A DNA stretch of 37,351 nt from Fimbriimonadaceae bacterium (GTDB lineage Bacteria > Armatimonadota > Fimbriimonadia > Fimbriimonadales > Fimbriimonadaceae), in the NCBI GenBank assembly GCA_025451715.1, contig JANWJY010000134.1, positions 1 to 37,351 on the forward strand, read 5' to 3'. Every line of letters begins with the position of its first letter. Position 1 is the first letter of the stretch. A program made the translations under genes and the position numbers. The notes beneath the pieces are model-generated. The model was given only the letters and a program-made list of their open reading frames with translations. It ran no database searches and had not been told where the DNA came from. Positions 12,525 to 22,344 of the stretch are shown piece after piece.

Positions 12525-12574
12525 TGGCAGGGGCAGCAGGGCTCGAACCCGCGACCTGCGGTTTTGGAGACCGC
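12525..12574 (-). repeat. attL: duplicated 3' half of tRNA-Trp (50 bp exact copy)
   Basis: tggcaggggcagcagggctcgaacccgcgacctgcggttttggagaccgc is identical to 22269-22318 and in the same orientation; sequence diverges immediately after. Confidence 0.93.
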
Positions 12575-12644
12575 AAAACAGCCACACAGATCGCTTCGAT
12601 TAGGTTCGAAATGTCCTCTGGAAAGGGCCCTGCGCGCAGCAAAG

Positions 12645-12666
12645 AGTATGAACAAGAGTATAAACA
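12645..12666 (+). repeat. Putative integrase arm-type site pair (left end)
   Basis: AGTATGAACA-AG-AGTATAAACA: two 10-bp direct repeats, 12-bp phasing, 70 bp inside the att core. Confidence 0.55.
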
Positions 12667-13044
12667 CCCGTTCGTGCTTGAGGCTCCTTTGTCAGCTAGT
12701 GCGGTGTGCCGCATTATTCGTCGCGTCAGCAGTCGACCAGGTTGGCCGTTAGCGATCTCGGGCTACTGGACTCGCGCATAGTTCAGGGCAGGCTGCATAG
12801 CGGGGCTTTCACGTGGTCTTGCCGCAATGGCTCCTTAGAGGGGGCCCAGCTACCATCTCGGGCAAGGACGCTCACTGCAGCCGTTGCAAAGGGAGGAAGT
12901 TCGCGATTGGCCCGATATGGGCGCTTCACGAAGCTGAGGGGCTGGAAACGCGCAGTAACAGCGGAAACTTGAGAATGTGCGTGAGATTAAGAGACATTTC
13001 ACAGTGATGTCTGTAAAATGTGTACTTGAGAGCATCGGAACGTA

Positions 13045-13114
13045 GCGTTAGGGGTCGTCATTGCCCAAGGATTTGCTCTCCCCTTGCCTTGGTATCGGTG
13101 GCGGCCCCTAACGC
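13045..13114. repeat. Long imperfect hairpin A
   Basis: GCGTTAGGGG...CCCCTAACGC outer stem continued by TCGTCATTG/CGGTGGCGG (with G.T pairs on the + strand) and CCAAGG/CCTTGG inner stem, loop ATTTGCTCTCCCCTTG. Confidence 0.6.
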
Positions 13115-13219
13115 ATTTAGCAGCTCACGATCGGCAAAGTCGCCAAGTTGCTTGGACGATCGCGCACTCAAAGTCGTGAGCCGACACATGTTGACTGCTA
13201 GTCAGCTATACCAGACCAG

Positions 13220-13597
13220 TTACTTCACTGGCTCGAAGTGGAACCGCTCGGCGTACAGCCCTTTTATGAGAGTGCCCGAGACGTTCATGTACACAGTGAA
13301 CCGGATCTCGCCGGTAGGCGATGCTTTCGTGTTCGTCGCAAGCTCCGGATGGTCGGTCTTCATCACACCATGAAGCGCATAGCCAGACGGCGTCTTCTCA
13401 ATCCAGGTGCGCTCGTCGTCGACCGAGCTGACTGTGAATGTGGTCGCGCCTGCGTAACGGCTTCGCAAGTGCATGACCGCGATGTCATATTCCGTCTTGT
13501 TGACGCGGGGCTGCAAGCGACACGCGAAGAAGGCGAATCCGCCGAACACGACAATCGACCCCGCGATCAGCCACACAAGGATCGAGTTCTTGCGCAT
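13220..13597 (-). CDS. Hypothetical membrane-anchored protein
   Basis: N-terminal TM MRKNSILVWLIAGSIVVFGGFAFFA, soluble tail. Confidence 0.55.
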   Translation of the reverse strand: MRKNSILVWLIAGSIVVFGGFAFFACRLQPRVNKTEYDIAVMHLRSRYAGATTFTVSSVDDERTWIEKTPSGYALHGVMKTDHPELATNTKASPTGEIRFTVYMNVSGTLIKGLYAERFHFEPVK

Positions 13598-13688
13598 CAC
13601 TGATTATTGTGCCCCGGAGAGGGCGGCTCTCCTTCGCCCTTCCGAGGCAAGTCGCGGCAAGCGGATCGACTTAGCGACTTGTAAGGGG

Positions 13689-14558
13689 CTAGCTACCCTC
13701 AGCTTTAGCCTTCTTCGATCCGAACAGATTCTCGAAGATGCGCGAATCAATCCCTATGCCAAAGGCGAGACGCGACTTCGCCTTGGCGTCGTCCGCAAAC
13801 GTCGCGCCTACCGTCAACAGCACAAGGGGGTCAAGTGCGTATGACACGCCCACGAAGAACTTTGAGTCAGCTTCGCCACCCCAACCAAAGTTGAAGCTCC
13901 ACGCTGCCTCCTTGAGACTGCCGACGGCAGCCGGGTCATCCTGCGCCGCCAAGACCGAGACCATTTGCGGCCCGTGTGCCTTTGCGACCGCCCTAAACCT
14001 CCGAGTCAAGACCTCGCGTTCATTGTTGTCCGCACGGGTGTTAGCAACAGCCAGGCACATCTCCGCGATCGCCTCGATTATCTTGTCCTTCTTCGGGTGC
14101 TTCAGGCGCGAAAACGGATACAGGTTCGCCGAAGGAACGGTCTTGAAGCCAAGCCCCTGTACATAGAGCATTCCGCTGGAGACACGCAGCTTGTCACCCA
14201 AGTTAGTCTGTGAGCTCTTTGGCGCGGGCTCTTCTTTATCGAGCGTCTCGAGTATGAATTGATTGAGTCCCGCTTTGACTTCGTCCACGGTTGCGTCCTT
14301 GATTCGCGGGTCGGCGGAGAACATGGTCTTAACCGTGCCTGCCATCACGGTGAAGTCCATGTTTCGGAGTTGCGTTGAAGCGGTAGCTACGCTAAAGGAT
14401 CCGCTGGACTTGGGACCAAACAGCAGCTCTATCAGGTCCTGGCCCTGCGTACCGCCTGCTGCTGGCGTCGTTGCCGTTACTTGCGCGTTAGCAGCGACCG
14501 GCGCGAGTGCGCAGAGTGCCGCGATGACGATATACGAGTTCTTTAACAGTTGTCTCAT
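13689..14558 (-). CDS. Hypothetical exported protein (signal peptide)
   Basis: SD AAGGAG upstream of ATG; signal peptide ...IVIAALCALAPVAANAQ; C-terminal region rich in alternating aromatic/polar strands. Confidence 0.65.
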   Translation of the reverse strand: MRQLLKNSYIVIAALCALAPVAANAQVTATTPAAGGTQGQDLIELLFGPKSSGSFSVATASTQLRNMDFTVMAGTVKTMFSADPRIKDATVDEVKAGLNQFILETLDKEEPAPKSSQTNLGDKLRVSSGMLYVQGLGFKTVPSANLYPFSRLKHPKKDKIIEAIAEMCLAVANTRADNNEREVLTRRFRAVAKAHGPQMVSVLAAQDDPAAVGSLKEAAWSFNFGWGGEADSKFFVGVSYALDPLVLLTVGATFADDAKAKSRLAFGIGIDSRIFENLFGSKKAKAEGS

Positions 14559-14635
14559 TTCTTTCACTCTCCTTATCAGGAGCGCGGGTAGGCGCTCGCT
14601 GCTACTGCTCCCTTAGTCTTGCGATCTGTAATTCG

Positions 14636-14672
14636 CCCCGGAGCGTAATGCTCTCCCTCCTCCGCTCCGGGG
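14636..14672. repeat. Hairpin C (10-bp perfect stem)
   Basis: CCCCGGAGCG-TAATGCTCTCCCTCCTC-CGCTCCGGGG. Confidence 0.7.
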
Positions 14673-14685
14673 GCTCCTGCGATTG

Positions 14686-14784
14686 CTATAGCACGGTCAC
14701 GGCGCTCATGGCCGCTTCAAAGCTGATTTGAGCGTGCCACGGCGAAGCGAAAGGCATGCGCATCGGGTACCAGTCTGCTGGCAT
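14686..14784 (-). CDS. Possible 32-aa small protein/leader peptide
   Basis: ATG preceded by strong SD (AGGAGAGGAGAGAGAAAACATG) and a sigma70-like promoter; MPADWYPMRMPFASPWHAQISFEAAMSAVTVL. Confidence 0.4.
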   Translation of the reverse strand: MPADWYPMRMPFASPWHAQISFEAAMSAVTVL

Positions 14785-14842
14785 GTTTTCTCTCTCCTCT
14801 CCTAGTTTTGGAAAAAGCGTTCGACCGCCCCTTCCGTTTTCG

Positions 14843-14873
14843 ATCATAGACCGCGCCCCGCGCGGCGTGTCAA
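14843..14873 (-). promoter_or_regulatory. Sigma70-like promoter
   Basis: Minus strand TTGACA (14868-14873) and TATGAT (14843-14848), 19-bp spacer; alternative TCTATG gives 17 bp. Confidence 0.5.
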
Positions 14874-15036
14874 GTGTTTTTTGAAAAAAGTTTTTCGCGC
14901 GGTGCGGAATGTTCTCGCAATGGATCGGGAGCCGCGTGCGGCGTGCCGGAGAAGGCGCTGGGTGTCGCAGAGGCGGCGCGGGATGGACCGCTGTGGTTTC
15001 TGCGTCTGCGTGCGCGCTCGCTCCGCCGCGCCGCGC

Positions 15037-15099
15037 GGTCTCTGGCCGAGGGAGGGAGGTTTCTGGACGGCGCAGTGACGTCTCCGGACGGCCCAGAAA
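15037..15099. repeat. Three degenerate 21-bp tandem repeats
   Basis: GGTCTCTGGCCGAGGGAGGGA / GGTTTCTGGACGGCGCAGTGA / CGTCTCCGGACGGCCCAGAAA at exact 21-bp spacing. Confidence 0.45.
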
Positions 15100-15250
15100 C
15101 GCCGGATTTGAACCTGTTTGAACCTGGGCGGGCCCGGACGGTACTATTAAGGCGTTGTGGACGTGCTCGTTGCGCGATATCCCTGGCACCTCCGGCTCCT
15201 CCTGCTCGCCAGCTTCACCGCCGGGTGGCAACTCGCCCCCTGGTTGCGCT

Positions 15251-15339
15251 GACCTAGCGCCTTGGCCGTGACTGCCCAGGGATTTGCCTCTCCTTAGCCC
15301 TGGCTCCGCTCGCAGCCGTTATGGATTCACGTTTAGGTC
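15251..15339. repeat. Long imperfect hairpin B
   Basis: GACCTAG...TTAGGTC outer stem, CCAGGG-ATTTGCCTCTCCTTAG-CCCTGG inner hairpin; sequence-similar to hairpin A. Confidence 0.55.
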
Positions 15340-15382
15340 GAGCCGTTTGTTCCCTCGTGACGCGGCGCGGAGAAGGGCCAGT

Positions 15383-15610
15383 TTAGATGGAGCTTTCGAG
15401 CTCGTGGAGATACTGTACAACGACCACGATGTCGGACGCCGGTGAACTGCTCTTACCTCGGATAATCCGATTCAGATCGTCCATCACCTTATCGCTAGGT
15501 TTCACGTGGGGGGCTAGTAGTGCTGCCGTTTGTGCGGCAAGCGTGCCCAGGTGGCTCAAATCGCAAGATTCCCACGCTTCGCGAACGTTGATTACTTCTT
15601 CCTTTGTCAT
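15383..15610 (-). CDS. Hypothetical 75-aa protein downstream of the AbiEii-like gene
   Basis: MTKEEVINVREAWESCDLSHLGTLAAQTAALLAPHV...; ATG about 26 bp after the AbiEii-like stop, same strand. Confidence 0.5.
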   Translation of the reverse strand: MTKEEVINVREAWESCDLSHLGTLAAQTAALLAPHVKPSDKVMDDLNRIIRGKSSSPASDIVVVVQYLHELESSI

Positions 15611-15635
15611 TTCATGAGACCTCGTGCTTGCAATA

Positions 15636-17036
15636 CTACACTAGGTAGCCGCGACGCCCAGGGCACTTGCTGCCAAACGTGTTCTTGTGAGCGTTTAGCT
15701 TTGTCGTCGGCTTGGAACGAGGAAAGGTCTTGCCACATAGGGGACATTGCACTCGGTAACTCATGACGGGGCGCGGGCGCCAGCCACGTGTTGCTGGCTT
15801 TCTCGGACGCACCACTCTCATCGGTTGGTTCCACGGAGATGTCTTCCTGGTCCCTTCGAAGTGAAGCTTGTCCGGAATGTCACCGGCTTTGGACAGCTCA
15901 ATCTCGTAGCGTGGACTAAAGGCGATCTCCGTTGGTTCCAACAACTCGATGTCTTGATGAAGGAACTGCTTGATTCCCGGGCCGCTGTTCACGCCGCCTG
16001 TTTGGTCGTACGCATAGAAGTATTCCTGGCCGACACCGTCGGATCTGCGCACCTTAAACGTAAGCGAATACGGCTCTACCAGTCGTTCTCGACGGTGATA
16101 CCGCAAACGTAAGACAGTCTTGCTGCGGCCCGCTTCAATTATCTTGTTGCGGTGTTCAACGGGATAGAACGCATGGAGGCCAGCACTCGAAGGGTAGGGC
16201 TGAAAGAGGGCTGCAATCGACTCCGCGAATCGTGCGAGAGCTTCTGTAAATGGAAAGCGGCTCGCAGTTGGTGGGACGACGTAGCTATTCCAGTCGTCCT
16301 CCCGAAGGTTCGAGGGCACGCTTTCTAAGATGTCCCTGGCAGCGGCAGGGCTACGATGAAATATGGACTTCTCTAGGAATGTTCTCGCGACCAATCCTCG
16401 ATTCACGTCATATTCGCCGTTTACAAACAAAGAAAAGACGAGATCGAAGAGGTCGACGATATGACGCCGCTGAATCAGGCACTTGAGCTTGTCGGCGAGG
16501 AGTTCTTCAAGTTGCACACACCGGACATCAGCCTTACACTTGGTTGCGTCGGAGTAGGCATGGATCAAGGGCCGCGACTGTATCGGCAGTCGCGGCCTAT
16601 CGTATTCGGAGATGTCAAGCGTCACTCGAATATCGAAGGTGCGGTCGACTCCGTAGAAATCCTTGAAGTAAAGCTTAGCCTCGATCTTGTTCCGCTCACT
16701 GTCAATAGCACGCACGTGGTTAACGGATGTCCGCTCGAGCTGAAAGTCCACGCCAGTCGCTGCTTGCACGTACTCGCAGACCCCAGTTAGTTGTTCTCTC
16801 ATTCTGTTGTAGTCGACGCGCAGCTGCGCTGCAAAATCTAGATCGTTCGAGAATCTTCCTAGAGGGGCGTATGCCTTACGAAAGCAGTTGCCGCCCTTGA
16901 GAACGAGATGCGGGCCCAAGTCCGACTGGCCATATATTCCTGCAAGAATCCAACCAAAAATGTAGTCTCGCTGTACGTTTGTGGTCGAGATTCCTAGATG
17001 GTTTGCTTCTTGCTCGATTTCGGTTCGGTCAATCAT
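15636..17036 (-). CDS. AbiEii/type IV TA-like nucleotidyltransferase fused to a WYL-like domain and C-terminal zinc finger
   Basis: HLVLKGGNCFRKAYAPLGRFSNDLDFAAQ (KGG...RxSxDLDF); EELLADKLKCLIQRRHIVDLFDL; C-terminal EAGRSKTVLRLRYHRRERLVEPYSL..FYAYDQTGG..LEPTEIAFSPRYEIEL; CPLCGKTF..LNAHKNTFGSKCPGRRGYLV. Confidence 0.82.
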   Translation of the reverse strand: MIDRTEIEQEANHLGISTTNVQRDYIFGWILAGIYGQSDLGPHLVLKGGNCFRKAYAPLGRFSNDLDFAAQLRVDYNRMREQLTGVCEYVQAATGVDFQLERTSVNHVRAIDSERNKIEAKLYFKDFYGVDRTFDIRVTLDISEYDRPRLPIQSRPLIHAYSDATKCKADVRCVQLEELLADKLKCLIQRRHIVDLFDLVFSLFVNGEYDVNRGLVARTFLEKSIFHRSPAAARDILESVPSNLREDDWNSYVVPPTASRFPFTEALARFAESIAALFQPYPSSAGLHAFYPVEHRNKIIEAGRSKTVLRLRYHRRERLVEPYSLTFKVRRSDGVGQEYFYAYDQTGGVNSGPGIKQFLHQDIELLEPTEIAFSPRYEIELSKAGDIPDKLHFEGTRKTSPWNQPMRVVRPRKPATRGWRPRPVMSYRVQCPLCGKTFPRSKPTTKLNAHKNTFGSKCPGRRGYLV

Positions 17037-17454
17037 TCCAGCCTTTGTTCACTTCCTCTGCCTTCAGCTTTATTGAGCTTCTCGTGCGCTCTTCCTCTTC
17101 CTCTCGCGCCTTCAGCTGTTGAAGTTTCTTCGTCATGTACGCATTGTATTGCGCGTTTGCTTCGTTGACGCAAAGCTTAAGCGTCTCCTTGTGGTACTGC
17201 TCCACTTCTTCTAGGGTCGTTTTCGTCAAGACAATTCGGTCACCATGTGCTTCGGCGATGCCGGGCCGATGCATGCTTGAGAAGCTAGGCGGTCGATTCC
17301 AGAGGTGAACAAGCAGTTCACACCATTCGGACGGGGCCTGCGCGGAGAGCTTGAAAGGCACCCTGTAAAGAGCGCTCCCCGGCGTGCCATCGTTTCGGGG
17401 CTGACCAACGTTTGCAGTGTCAATGCCAGTGATTTGGATGTTGACCGTGCTCAT
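17029..17454 (-). CDS. Hypothetical upstream partner of the AbiEii-like protein (possible antitoxin/adaptor)
   Basis: MSTVNIQITGIDTANVGQPRNDGTPGSALYRVPFKL...; 8-bp overlap with the AbiEii-like gene; charged coiled C-terminus. The longer ORF-track start (17877) runs into unrelated sequence. Confidence 0.6.
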   Translation of the reverse strand: MSTVNIQITGIDTANVGQPRNDGTPGSALYRVPFKLSAQAPSEWCELLVHLWNRPPSFSSMHRPGIAEAHGDRIVLTKTTLEEVEQYHKETLKLCVNEANAQYNAYMTKKLQQLKAREEEEERTRSSIKLKAEEVNKGWND

Positions 17455-17484
17455 AGTAGCTAAGTATGGCATCCGCAATGGTAA

Positions 17485-17739
17485 TGCCGTCGCTTCGTAA
17501 TCGCGACCAACCTCACGACCAAGAAGACGCGGCTGCTGAGCATCGACGCGCAGAACAAGGGCGCGGCCAACGCGTTCCTGCGCCTCTACGACAAGGCCAC
17601 GGCGCCCGCGCCCGGATCGGACGTGCCAAAGATGACTTACATGCTCGCGCCGGGGGGCGGGAAGGTGATCGAGAAGAACATCGCGCTCGAGTTCGCGAAC
17701 GGCTTCGGCTACGCGATCACCGGCGGCGCGGGCCGGTAG
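17485..17739 (+). pseudogene. C-terminal remnant of a small phage structural-like protein
   Basis: Open frame without a credible start: ..ATNLTTKKTRLLSIDAQNKGAANAFLRLYDKATAPAPGSDVPKMTYMLAPGGGKVIEKNIALEFANGFGYAITGGAGR*. Confidence 0.5.
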
Positions 17740-17749
17740 AATCGGCCCC

Positions 17750-20374
17750 GTGGCTGGACGGGGCGGTGGCCGGGCTGAAGGGCCCTGCATCGAAGGGGAC
17801 CGCAGGAGGGCGCCCGGTTCTGCGCCTGCCGCATTCACCCACCTCTTACTGGCAAGAGTCCGACACGACTCCGCCAACTCTCATTCGCTTGATTGGCTTG
17901 ACGTTGCCGCCAAGCAGTTCAACGCCACCCTAATTAGTACTGCCGGGGACCGCTTGTACTCGCTTCCCACAGCGCGTGCGTGCCTTGACCTTGCAATGTG
18001 CATCCAGCTTCACAAGGAGGTGCGCCCGATCGACGGAGGCGCAATCGTCGTGTTCGCTGGGGACGATGGCTACGGCTCGTCTGCGCGCGCGCGTCGACTT
18101 GAATCGCTCGCGGAGCGCGGAAGGATCGGCCAGGTGCTTGCAGTCGGCAAAGTGATCGCGACACTCGGGCCCGTGACGACAAACTTGCGCATTGTGTCCC
18201 TTGGCACACACCGGTTCGAGGACATGCTTCCAGAGGAGGAGGTCGCTTCGCTTTCGATCGGTGCCGGGTTCGATGCGCCAACCTTCAACCTTGAGGGACT
18301 GGACCTCTACGACCACAACCTTCCAGTGTTCTTCGACTCATTCGTCGGACGGGACGGGATGATTGACGAGGTCATCGGCGCGGCGGACACAACTAGGCTT
18401 GTGACTCTCGTCGGCTGTGGCGGCGTCGGGAAAACTCGGCTGGCGATACACGCCGCAGCGCGGCTGATGTTGGACGGGTTCCACGTACTGCGCCTTGTGC
18501 GGCTGGCTGAAGCGGACCGAGGCGGGGATATCGGGTCAGTGGTTGCAGCGAAGGCGGGGATTCGCTCTGCACGAATCGAGGACTTCGTTGGGGCCTATCG
18601 CGCCAAACGTTGCCTGTTCGTGATCGACAACTGCGAGCACGTGCTAGCAAGCGCCGTGTCTGTCGTGCGCAGGATCATTACTGAGATTCCGGGCGCATTG
18701 GTCTTGGTTACCTCTCGTGAGATCCTGGACCTTGGTGGCGAGGTGGCGATCGAGGTACCGCCGCTGTCGCTGCCCGGCGAGGAGTATGACTTTAGTTCCA
18801 TAGAGCGATCAGGTGCAGTGGAGCTTTTTGTCGACAGGTTGCGCGAACGTGCGCCAGAGTTTCAAGTCGGTGAAGAGTGCTTGGACTCGGTCGTGTCTTT
18901 ATGTCGGCGCTTGGACGGTCTGCCGCTCGCGCTGGAGCACGCTGCTGGACAGGCGGCGTATTTGGGACTCGAAGAATGCGAAAGAGGGCTCTCGCGGCGG
19001 TTCGACCTTTTACGCTCGGAGCGGCGCGATTACGACGAGCGACACAGGACGGTATGGGCGACGATCGATTGGAGCTATGGGCTATTGAGCGACAAAGAGA
19101 AGCATTGCCTGTGCTCGCTTTCCGTCTTTGCAGGCTCGTTTTCAATGAGCGATGCGACTGCGATTGTCTCTGACGAAGTTGTCGATGAGACGAGCGCGCA
19201 ATCAGTACTGACATCATTGATAAGAAAGAGCCTAGTGGTTCGAGAATTCGACTCACGCGGCAACGCCGTCTACCATATGCTCGAGACAGTGCGCGACTTC
19301 GCAAGAGCGCAGTGCGTTGATCGCGGTGATCGCATGCGAGCGCGGCATTTTGAACACATCCGGGGCCTGGTCGATAGCGCATTTGACACGTGGGAAGGCA
19401 AGGCGTCTCCGGTCAAGTTTGCGGATCTTCAGGGTAGATATGTGGACGTGAAGGCTGGGCTCGATTGGGGCGTTGAGGCTGACCACCCGTCGATCGCCGA
19501 GACGCTACGGCGGTTGACGCGCTATTGGATCGAGTACGGGCCAATCTCGGACGGTGTTAGATTCTTGAAGCGTGCGGTGCAGCCGTCGATCGACTCGGAT
19601 CAGTTCTCGTGCGACCATGCGAACGCGCTGGCGGCGATGCTATGGATGGACGGTAAGTTTGACGAGGCGCGGCCGATCTTTGAGAGAGTGCTCTCAAAAG
19701 CGAGTCTAATGGGAGACCTTGTGACAGCTGCGACGGCTCACAACAACCTTGCCGGGCTCTCCATCCACTCAAATGACGCCAGCGCGGCCGTTGAACACTT
19801 CCGTCTCGCATATGGGATCTATCAAGAGGCGGGCGAAAGCGGTAAAGCGGCAATGTGCGCAGCAAACCTCGGATACCAGCTCGCGCGTGCCGGCGAACAA
19901 GCAGAAGCGATCAACGTCCTCAGAGGAGCATTGTCAGAAGGACGGGGAATTGTTCCATTCGAGACTGAGGCTGTACTGTTGCTCAACCTCAGCGACGCAC
20001 TCCGTTTTGATGGCCGTATCGACGAGTGCCTGTCCGTACTATGCGAAGTATTGTCCAAGTGCTCGGCCAATGAACATGCCTCCTCTGTCCCGAAGGCAGT
20101 CCTTCGCGCTTGCATTGCCCTTCAGAAGCGTTGTGGCGCTGAAGACGTCGCTCGGCTCTATGGAATCGCTTCGCAGGGGTTCGCCGAATTCTCGAGCACG
20201 GAGTTTGGTGAGCGTGCAGCAATGCAAATCGAGGTCGTGAAGTTCCTTGGGAGTTCCCTTGTGCCGGACGAGAGAGACCGAATCGTCGCCGGTGGCGCCG
20301 TCGTCATTGGCTCGCAGCGGGTGAGAGAGGCTTTGATAATCATTAAAAAAGCCCTTGACATGTCGGTGGAATAA
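17750..20374 (+). CDS. STAND-type ATPase (COG3903-like NB-ARC) with degenerate cyclase-like N-terminus and C-terminal TPR-like repeats
   Basis: FVGRDGMIDEVIGAADTTRLVTLVGCGGVGKTRLAIHAA (Walker A), KRCLFVIDNCEHV (Walker B), GALVLVTSREIL, LDGLPLALEHAAG; start codon uncertain. Confidence 0.85.
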   Translation: MAGRGGGRAEGPCIEGDRRRAPGSAPAAFTHLLLARVRHDSANSHSLDWLDVAAKQFNATLISTAGDRLYSLPTARACLDLAMCIQLHKEVRPIDGGAIVVFAGDDGYGSSARARRLESLAERGRIGQVLAVGKVIATLGPVTTNLRIVSLGTHRFEDMLPEEEVASLSIGAGFDAPTFNLEGLDLYDHNLPVFFDSFVGRDGMIDEVIGAADTTRLVTLVGCGGVGKTRLAIHAAARLMLDGFHVLRLVRLAEADRGGDIGSVVAAKAGIRSARIEDFVGAYRAKRCLFVIDNCEHVLASAVSVVRRIITEIPGALVLVTSREILDLGGEVAIEVPPLSLPGEEYDFSSIERSGAVELFVDRLRERAPEFQVGEECLDSVVSLCRRLDGLPLALEHAAGQAAYLGLEECERGLSRRFDLLRSERRDYDERHRTVWATIDWSYGLLSDKEKHCLCSLSVFAGSFSMSDATAIVSDEVVDETSAQSVLTSLIRKSLVVREFDSRGNAVYHMLETVRDFARAQCVDRGDRMRARHFEHIRGLVDSAFDTWEGKASPVKFADLQGRYVDVKAGLDWGVEADHPSIAETLRRLTRYWIEYGPISDGVRFLKRAVQPSIDSDQFSCDHANALAAMLWMDGKFDEARPIFERVLSKASLMGDLVTAATAHNNLAGLSIHSNDASAAVEHFRLAYGIYQEAGESGKAAMCAANLGYQLARAGEQAEAINVLRGALSEGRGIVPFETEAVLLLNLSDALRFDGRIDECLSVLCEVLSKCSANEHASSVPKAVLRACIALQKRCGAEDVARLYGIASQGFAEFSSTEFGERAAMQIEVVKFLGSSLVPDERDRIVAGGAVVIGSQRVREALIIIKKALDMSVE

Positions 20375-20383
20375 TCGGATAAT
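20355..20383 (+). promoter_or_regulatory. Strong sigma70-like promoter
   Basis: TTGACA (20355-20360), 17-bp spacer, GATAAT (20378-20383). Confidence 0.65.
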
Positions 20384-20388
20384 GGGAC

Positions 20389-20412
20389 GTCGCCTGACGC
20401 AAGTCAGACGAC
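20389..20412 (+). promoter_or_regulatory. 5'-UTR stem-loop with GCAA (GNRA) tetraloop
   Basis: GTCGCCTGAC-GCAA-GTCAGACGAC, 10-bp stem with one mismatch, just downstream of the predicted promoter. Confidence 0.6.
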
Positions 20413-20429
20413 AAAGGAGAGAGAGAATC

Positions 20430-20873
20430 ATGGTCAATCCAGTTACTAGTGGCAACGGCATTATTCCGATCACTATGGCGCCGCCCGAGGACGTCGCCCC
20501 TACAATCGAAGGCTATGGAACGTCGATCGGCGTCATTGAGATGACGCTGCCGGAGAGCGAACTTCCAGCCTCGCTGTTCGAAGAGGGACTGCCTGAGTTC
20601 CCTATCACTTACGAGTTCGAGGAGTACACGCTTGTCCTCCAGGGCGGATCGCTGACCCAAATACAGCTGTCTGGCGTAACGATCGACTGGGCAGCATCAG
20701 ACCTCGCCGAGTCAGGCTCGTTTAATGGGCAGTTCGGGGTCACGACCTTCTACAACTTGATCGGCAAGGAGTTCAGCACCTTTCAGTACACGTACTTGAG
20801 GTTCGCTTGCGTCCTGGTCGAGAACGGCGTTGAAAAGTCGGACTCCTGGACGGTACGGATGAAGCACTTCTGA
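20430..20873 (+). CDS. Hypothetical protein, 147 aa
   Basis: ATG preceded by AAGGAGAGAGAGAATC; own promoter and 5' hairpin; followed by hairpin 20888-20913. Confidence 0.7.
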   Translation: MVNPVTSGNGIIPITMAPPEDVAPTIEGYGTSIGVIEMTLPESELPASLFEEGLPEFPITYEFEEYTLVLQGGSLTQIQLSGVTIDWAASDLAESGSFNGQFGVTTFYNLIGKEFSTFQYTYLRFACVLVENGVEKSDSWTVRMKHF

Positions 20874-20887
20874 GTGCTTCCAAATGT

Positions 20888-20913
20888 GAGCGGGCTCGAT
20901 GTCGGGCCCGCTC
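20888..20913 (+). terminator. Terminator-like hairpin (no U tract)
   Basis: GAGCGGGC-TCGATGTCGG-GCCCGCTC perfect 8-bp stem 14 bp after the stop codon. Confidence 0.45.
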
Positions 20914-20933
20914 CCAGTATCATAGATGCGGCA

Positions 20934-21452
20934 ATGGATCGCGTCGAATCTGGATTCACCGCATACGAAAGCCAGCGGTTGGAGCTCAAGAGTGCTTTCA
21001 CTTGGAACGCGCGTCACGGTCGAGAAGACGGTGACCTCAGGCTAGGATCGGTGCGAACGATCGCTGCCTTCGCCAATACGTCTGGCGGTCGGCTCTATAT
21101 TGGAGTTGGTGACGACGGCACGATACACGGTATTGAGGAAGAGGTGTCGGCACTGTTTGGCGATTCCCATCTTGATCAGTTTGAAGGTTTGATCCTGGAA
21201 CACCTCAAGAACACGCTTTGGCCAAACCCAACCAGAGCCTACACCGTTGGGTTTGAACAGCTGGAGTCGAAGTGGATCTGCGCCATAGATGTGAGTCCAT
21301 GTCCAGGAATCACATATGTGAGAACGAAATCTGGGGGAGGCACGGTCGAACACAGTATCTACGTTCGAACGGGCAATCGAACTGTCAAGGTAGCCGACAT
21401 TGAACGCGACCGCTTCATTGTAGAGAGGAACGGTGGCTCCTGGTCTCTTTGA
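20934..21452 (+). CDS. AlbA/Schlafen_AAA_4-like putative ATP-/nucleic-acid-binding protein
   Basis: ESQRLELKSAFTWN....GDLRLGSVRTIAAFANTSGGRLYIGVGDDGTIHGIEEEV is the canonical AlbA_2 signature; start may be 20874 (GTG) or 20934 (ATG). Confidence 0.78.
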   Translation: MDRVESGFTAYESQRLELKSAFTWNARHGREDGDLRLGSVRTIAAFANTSGGRLYIGVGDDGTIHGIEEEVSALFGDSHLDQFEGLILEHLKNTLWPNPTRAYTVGFEQLESKWICAIDVSPCPGITYVRTKSGGGTVEHSIYVRTGNRTVKVADIERDRFIVERNGGSWSL

Positions 21453-21548
21453 CGAAGGCGACGGCGAGGAAAGGCAGTGATTACCGTGTCATGTCAAGTG
21501 GCAACGCGCAATTAATTCTCTCTTAAATAGGCTCAAATCAAGCGCATG

Positions 21549-21567
21549 TGTGGAAAACTTTTCCACA
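21549..21567. repeat. 19-bp perfect palindrome resembling inverted DnaA boxes
   Basis: TGTGGAAAA-C-TTTTCCACA; each half is one base off TTATCCACA. Confidence 0.6.
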
Positions 21568-21656
21568 GTCCATTGGATTTCAGCTAGAGTGGCGGAGAAA
21601 GTCCACATAGCAGGGTGGAGGAGTTGCGATGTATCGTTAATCTGGTCTGCGCCCTC

Positions 21657-22199
21657 ATGCTCGGGAACGTGAACCCGGTGTTCACCGGGCTGCCCGACGC
21701 GATTCGTCTTGTTGCCGTCGACGAGTACTACCCCCGGACGAGCGACGTCATCAACCCGGGAGGGCCAAGCATCACGCAGGACGTCGAGGACCGGCACGTG
21801 CTGTCGTTCATCTTCAAGAACGTCGCGCTGCCGGCAGGCGAGCACGGGCCGTGGTACCAGATCGCGATGCAGTATCCAGGCGAGGCGCCGTACAACGTCA
21901 GCGCCACGCTTGTCTCCGACTCGAACTGGAGTGGGGATCCCGATGAGGAGTACGGCATGCAGGTTAACTGGAACGGAAGTGGCTTTGCAAAGTTCTTTGT
22001 TGTCGTCGACAACGATGACCTTCCCGAGGAGGTCCACTTTTCGATACTCAAGATTCAAGAGTACTACAACGAAATGACTGAGTCTTGGGAGCCGCAGTAT
22101 TGGGGCTGGACGCCTACCTTCGAGATCAACAAGGTCAGCGCAGAAGACGCTGCGATCGATACGCGCAAACTGACCGAAACGAGCTTCATCGAGCGGTAG
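21657..22199 (+). CDS. Hypothetical protein (start uncertain, 21615-21657)
   Basis: 181-codon ORF MLGNVNPVFTGLPDAIRLVAVDEYYPR..., last gene before the right att site. Confidence 0.55.
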   Translation: MLGNVNPVFTGLPDAIRLVAVDEYYPRTSDVINPGGPSITQDVEDRHVLSFIFKNVALPAGEHGPWYQIAMQYPGEAPYNVSATLVSDSNWSGDPDEEYGMQVNWNGSGFAKFFVVVDNDDLPEEVHFSILKIQEYYNEMTESWEPQYWGWTPTFEINKVSAEDAAIDTRKLTETSFIER

Positions 22200-22201
22200 A
22201 T

Positions 22202-22223
22202 AGTATGAACCAAAGTATGAACA
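22202..22223 (+). repeat. Putative integrase arm-type site pair (right end)
   Basis: AGTATGAACC-AA-AGTATGAACA: same 10-bp repeat and 12-bp phasing as 12645-12666, 45 bp inside the att core. Confidence 0.55.
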
Positions 22224-22268
22224 AAGCGAGGGATTCGAAACTTCCCTTCGTGTTCTTAGGTTGAAATC

Positions 22269-22344
22269 TGGCAGGGGCAGCAGGGCTCGAACCCGCGACC
22301 TGCGGTTTTGGAGACCGCTGCTCTACCAACTGAGCTATACCCCT
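22269..22344 (-). tRNA. tRNA-Trp (CCA anticodon), CCA end encoded
   Basis: Minus strand AGGGGTATAGCTCAGTTGGTAGAGCAGCGGTCTCCAAAACCGCAGGTCGCGGGTTCGAGCCCTGCTGCCCCTGCCA; all four stems pair, anticodon loop CTCCAAA. Confidence 0.96.

Follow-up and report, generated by a model that had tools for sequence, protein, structure and literature searches.

Paired decamers at the ends of a tRNA-Trp island are probable arm-type sites of a lost tyrosine integrase

What kind of element left a displaced fragment of tRNA-Trp in this Fimbriimonadaceae genome, and do the pairs of short direct repeats just inside its two ends mark the sites used by its integrase? Analysis of the window, by which we mean the whole 37,351-nt stretch of DNA, revealed two components of a tRNA island as Islander defines it: an intact tRNA gene, the tRNA-Trp (CCA) identified by ARAGORN at 22269–22344 on the − strand, and a displaced 3′ fragment of this gene at 12525–12574 on the + strand. 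The fragment (the left core copy) is a perfect 50-bp copy of 22269–22318 (the right core copy), such that a core repeat derived from the target site is present at both ends, with one copy lying within tRNA-Trp. The repeat extends up to the distal side of the anticodon stem, consistent with a crossover within the anticodon loop, a recognised sub-site of tRNA genes for this step (PMC4383910); in the left core copy this loop, the presumed point of crossover, spans 12563–12569. The Islander definition also includes an integrase gene inside the island, and here only an 18-codon remnant was found. The two island ends are best read as hybrid att sites, left by an element whose integrase has been lost, and the decamers described below are very probably the arm-type sites of that enzyme, a conclusion drawn from sequence comparison.

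The original prediction proposed that two copies of one decamer at each island end are candidate arm-type sites, and its positions for all four, each on the + strand, proved exact. The left pair consists of AGTATGAACA (12645–12654) and, in 12-bp phase, AGTATAAACA (12657–12666), and the right pair of AGTATGAACC (22202–22211) and, in the same phase, AGTATGAACA (22214–22223); their candidate status derives from sequence, motif counts and the geometry in relatives. These four decamers were the only exact matches to AGTATRAACM in the window, and with one mismatch or fewer there were seven matches compared to 2.1 expected, a number reached in none of 100 shuffles. The left and right 22-mers are identical at 19 of 22 bases, a value reached by one of 2930 random pairs from 150-bp window segments. 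When the phased pair AGTATRAACM-N2-AGTATRAACM was searched with up to three mismatches in the 2.0-Mb assembly (G000, 69% complete), solely 12645–12666 and 22202–22223 were recovered, and a reversed-pattern control gave no matches in this assembly. Rather than being common genome-wide, a finding that would have counted against the prediction, the pair was rare both in the assembly and in 85 genomes of the family. Two-mismatch decamer matches in G029:C2 and G043 were set aside as chance, as the former lies within an ordinary ORF and neither is near a tRNA.

Of the genomes searched, just one other, G029, belongs to the genus, and it provided a direct comparison. Its tRNA-Trp is orthologous to that of the window, with both flanks related at the protein level, and also bears an island, 3.3 kb long and containing a nitroreductase-family gene, with no detectable similarity in cargo to the window island. 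The decamer pair is present at both ends of this second tRNA-Trp island, where the original prediction could have foundered on its absence, and in the same geometry: relative to the core start the decamers lie at +118/+130 and −68/−57 in G029 and at +119/+131 and −68/−56 in the window, so that the core-to-decamer distances are equal within 1 bp. The right pair of G029 overlaps the stop codon of a 5′-truncated tyrosine integrase ending in ...ELHRQVDSMNKV. Given this overlap with a coding region, conservation of the protein could account for part of that of the right pair. The Trp islands may have arisen by separate insertions, or a single old insertion may have had its cargo exchanged, and in the latter case they would not count as independent examples. 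Another 24 tRNA-Trp copies were inspected across the family, and none had a decamer within 400 bp. Separately, a tRNA-Trp fragment in another genome (L023 1501–1547; G063:C16:11145–11191) diverges within the anticodon loop and lacks decamers, and it probably marks one end of an unrelated island that shares this target.

The integrase of the window island survives as the last 18 codons of a tyrosine integrase gene (YAQTDRNELHRAVDSMNQ; 22160–22213, + strand), which overlap the right arm sites and share 14 of 18 residues with the terminus of the integrase fragment in G029 (in tblastn, E=2e-6 for a query of 30 aa and 2e-4 for one of 152 aa). Judged from its sequence, the remnant appears to begin at the catalytic tyrosine. 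No intact integrase was found in the window island or in the 69%-complete assembly, no close relative in a GTDB scan, which returned only a weak 21-aa match, and no phage source among 50,697 phage records. Since the island has no intact integrase, it would be either a decayed element or one mobilised in trans. The two tyrosine recombinases of the assembly were considered as cognate integrases and rejected, having an Xer-like domain make-up and loci that lack the decamers.

The cargo of the island includes an AbiEii-type nucleotidyltransferase homologue of 466 aa (15636–17036, − strand; Pfam PF08843 E=1.1e-22, PADLOC AbiEii 4.3e-42), a possible defence gene, for which no partner antitoxin was recognised in the window with Pfam or PADLOC. 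This toxin homologue has a long C-terminal extension with a weak match to the WYL model and a Cys/His-rich tail. Also present are an 874-aa ORF with TPR repeats, identified from the ORF list and Pfam and of uncertain start codon (17750–20374, + strand), and a 192-aa Schlafen AlbA_2-domain protein (20874–21452, + strand; PF04326 E=1e-15).

The original prediction had envisaged an integrase elsewhere that carries such decamers in its own att site, and in addition to the truncated one at the G029 tRNA-Trp, intact and distant ones were found at two tRNA-Thr genes of another genome in the class (G056). These two 352-aa integrases, one of them encoded at L053 9786–10844 on the − strand, share 95% identity across the aligned part and have about 27% identity with the fragment in G029, and their genes end at tRNA-Thr(TGT) and tRNA-Thr(CGT); pairs of the AGTATAAAC/AGTATAAAT type overlap the 3′ ends of the genes, followed by TTAGGTTC and then the tRNA. 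A search of 113 genomes of the class for AGTRTRAAY-N3-AGTRTRAAY gave five exact matches, all at att ends, and two one-mismatch matches elsewhere, which we take as chance. Two of the five were previously unknown and, although found blind, adjoin tRNA-Thr fragments (48/48 and 47/48 bases) that mark them as the far termini of the G056 islands; in the CGT case the termini fall on separate contigs and their connection is inferred. In all four islands the left pairs start +77 to +79 and +89 to +91 from the centre of the anticodon loop and the right pairs −104 to −108 and −91 to −97, and thus each island carries, at the level of sequence, repeats on both arms that are distinct from the core and conserved in position. 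Together, the rarity of the pair, the same geometry in the sister-species island and the integrases accompanied by such decamers support the predicted att function. The intact integrases contain about 65–75 residues before the core-binding (SAM-like) domain, in which no arm-binding domain was matched by Pfam, so their putative heterobivalent character rests on the DNA layout and the length of this N-terminal stretch. Outside one G056 tRNA-Thr fragment, at L068 1254–1275, lies a further decamer-like pair, AGGATAAACCCCAAGCATAAAC, which might mark one end of an adjacent, older island.

When one of the G056 integrases was used to search the class, further family members were obtained, most with a tRNA nearby, and in several of them the layout recurs with other repeat sequences. 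Direct 9-mer repeats spaced 10–14 bp apart were found within 70 bp of the integrase stop codon in 7 of 12 cases, compared to 190 of 4800 random segments. Two copies of AAAGGGACAGT are present at each end of the G015 island (tRNA-Thr) and two copies of ATAGGGTTCA at each end of the G068 island (tRNA-Val); the G077 island (tRNA-Thr) has imperfect AAGTGAC/AAGGTGAC repeats at both ends, and in the islands of G011 (tRNA-Leu) and G024 (tRNA-Arg), to which the accessory motif discussed below had led, each end carries TTGAGAGAC repeats, some of them as imperfect or single copies. Thus, at each end of islands at tRNA-Thr, -Val, -Leu and -Arg, direct repeats occur as pairs spaced by roughly one helical turn, in an element-specific sequence, suggesting that the pair is a layout common to many elements whose sequence varies by element, as would be expected if heterobivalent integrases use the repeats as arm-type sites (PMC4880445). 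In G024:C19 (L167–L169), tRNA-Arg fragments at joined coordinates 42497 and 44629, separated by about 2.1 kb, are each followed by TTGAGAGAC-type repeats, constituting tandem islands at one tRNA-Arg.

Directionality factors can bind short repeated sites in att arms, Xis-like factors among them, and the decamers might therefore serve such a factor, or an element-encoded regulator, instead of the integrase. We regard this as unlikely: the pairs occupy both arms at fixed distances, their sequence varies between elements while the layout stays constant, and no Xis/RDF candidate was recognised in the window island with Pfam or PADLOC, a search by which a small one could be missed. The overlap of the right decamers with the gene remnant raises a different explanation, in which the right pair is merely the coding end of the integrase gene, its internal repeat a coding oddity, and the left pair a chance or copied likeness. 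This is highly improbable given that a left pair recurs at this offset in the G029 island and the two of G056, and that, where other integrases have unrelated repeats near the 3′ end of the gene, these are matched by repeats at the opposite end of the island. Least credible of all is an origin of the repeats as iterons, which are likewise short phased direct repeats, as transposon ends or as some other repeat unrelated to integration, because the copies at the two ends are direct rather than inverted and tied to tRNA cores and integrase stop codons, and neither Pfam nor PADLOC revealed a gene for replication or a transposase in the island.

The original prediction also listed a second motif at both ends, and it is indeed present, at the stated position on the right (TTAGGTTGAAAT, 22256–22267, + strand, between the right arm pair and the core) and shifted by one base on the left (TTAGGTTCGAAAT, 12600–12612 instead of 12599–12611, + strand, between the core and the left arm pair); both copies were identified from sequence and their motif class was tested. 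Allowing one mismatch on either strand, AGGTTCAAA was found within 65 bp inside 17 of 20 island ends, compared to 154 of 9600 random segments (1.6%), a count in which the right ends of G011, G024 and G019 are not independent, since these islands were chosen via the motif there. At 8 of 10 left ends, a distance of 27–29 bp separates the core end from AGGTTCAAA or a two-mismatch form. The exact 13-mer TTTAGGTTCAAAT occurs 166 times in the 113 class genomes, mostly in the window's own family, compared to four times for the reversed pattern, counts that are summed over a per-genome table and use a control not dinucleotide-matched. About 12 of 70 loci inspected, partly judged by eye, adjoin a tRNA 3′ end or fragment (examples of TTTAGGTTCAAAT loci are L082, L087, L089, L097, L102 and L108 near 1500 and L148 near 400); the remaining loci are not beside a tRNA, indicating that the motif is not confined to att sites. 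One copy with no tRNA nearby (L086 1400–1600) lies between GTGACGGGTT repeats and inverted AACCCGTCAC repeats, perhaps an att-like site at a non-tRNA target. The AGGTTCAAA motif resembles the tRNA T-loop GGTTCRA, and was not found in a relevant context in the literature searched.

The motif occupies the place of the lambda IHF sites, between core and arms, and HU/IHF (PF00216) was detected in only 3 of 113 class genomes compared to 9 of 14 control genomes, being undetected in G000, G029 and G056; as judged from these genome sequences, the class seems to be largely without HU/IHF. One possibility, which we advance tentatively and hold to be somewhat less probable than its negation, is that AGGTTCAAA (13-mer TTTAGGTTCAAAT) is the site of a host-encoded architectural protein that replaces IHF/HU in the class, shared by many integrases as a core-arm bending element and also used elsewhere in the genomes.

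From what was directly observed, namely the sequences, their rarity, the geometry conserved in other islands and the gene remnant, we infer the following route. The island would have entered the 3′ half of tRNA-Trp via a lambda-type (heterobivalent) tyrosine integrase. Its circular form would run from the right decamer pair through an accessory motif to the tRNA core, where the anticodon loop would be the point of crossover, and on through the other accessory motif to the left decamer pair. The N-terminal domain of the integrase would grip the decamers while its catalytic part, on the inverted repeat of the anticodon stem, exchanged strands, and the AGGTTCAAA-type motif between core and arms was probably bound by a helper that would bend the DNA. 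The integrase gene would have lain at the right end with its 3′ end over the arm sites and later lost all but its last 18 codons, so the present copy would be immobile or dependent on an integrase in trans.

These results suggest a sequence-only rule for locating the two ends of a tRNA island in the class, including islands that have lost the integrase, namely paired repeats 11–13 bp apart together with AGGTTCAAA. A set of integrases with differing arm sequences and one layout would also be useful for studying arm-site recognition. Because most class genomes lack detectable HU/IHF, the conserved accessory motif raises a testable question: what bends att DNA without IHF?

Comparison with known systems indicates that the decamers would be a new example of an already known kind of site. 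In the att site of phage lambda, the Int arm-type sites P and P′ are accompanied by the IHF sites H1, H2 and H′ (PMC4880445), and as in lambda the arm-type sites described here lie on both sides of the core, differ from it in sequence and are separated from it by accessory sites. Unlike lambda, each arm has two direct-repeat sites, the core is the anticodon region of tRNA-Trp, the accessory motif is AGGTTCAAA in hosts without detectable HU/IHF, and the window island has no intact integrase. The anticodon-centred tRNA islands of Islander (PMC4383910) are likewise bounded by an intact tRNA on one side and by a displaced 3′ fragment on the other; the Islander strategy, however, seeks an integrase gene, which here is reduced to 18 codons. 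The attL of the KplE1 prophage at argW, with its IntS arm sites (PMC2951348), is similar in its tRNA target and in the proximity of the arm sites to the integrase gene, but those sites lie over the integrase promoter, whereas in the window island they lie over the integrase stop codon. What makes the variant worth following is a layout shared across the clade together with a conserved motif, other than that of IHF, in hosts without detectable HU/IHF.
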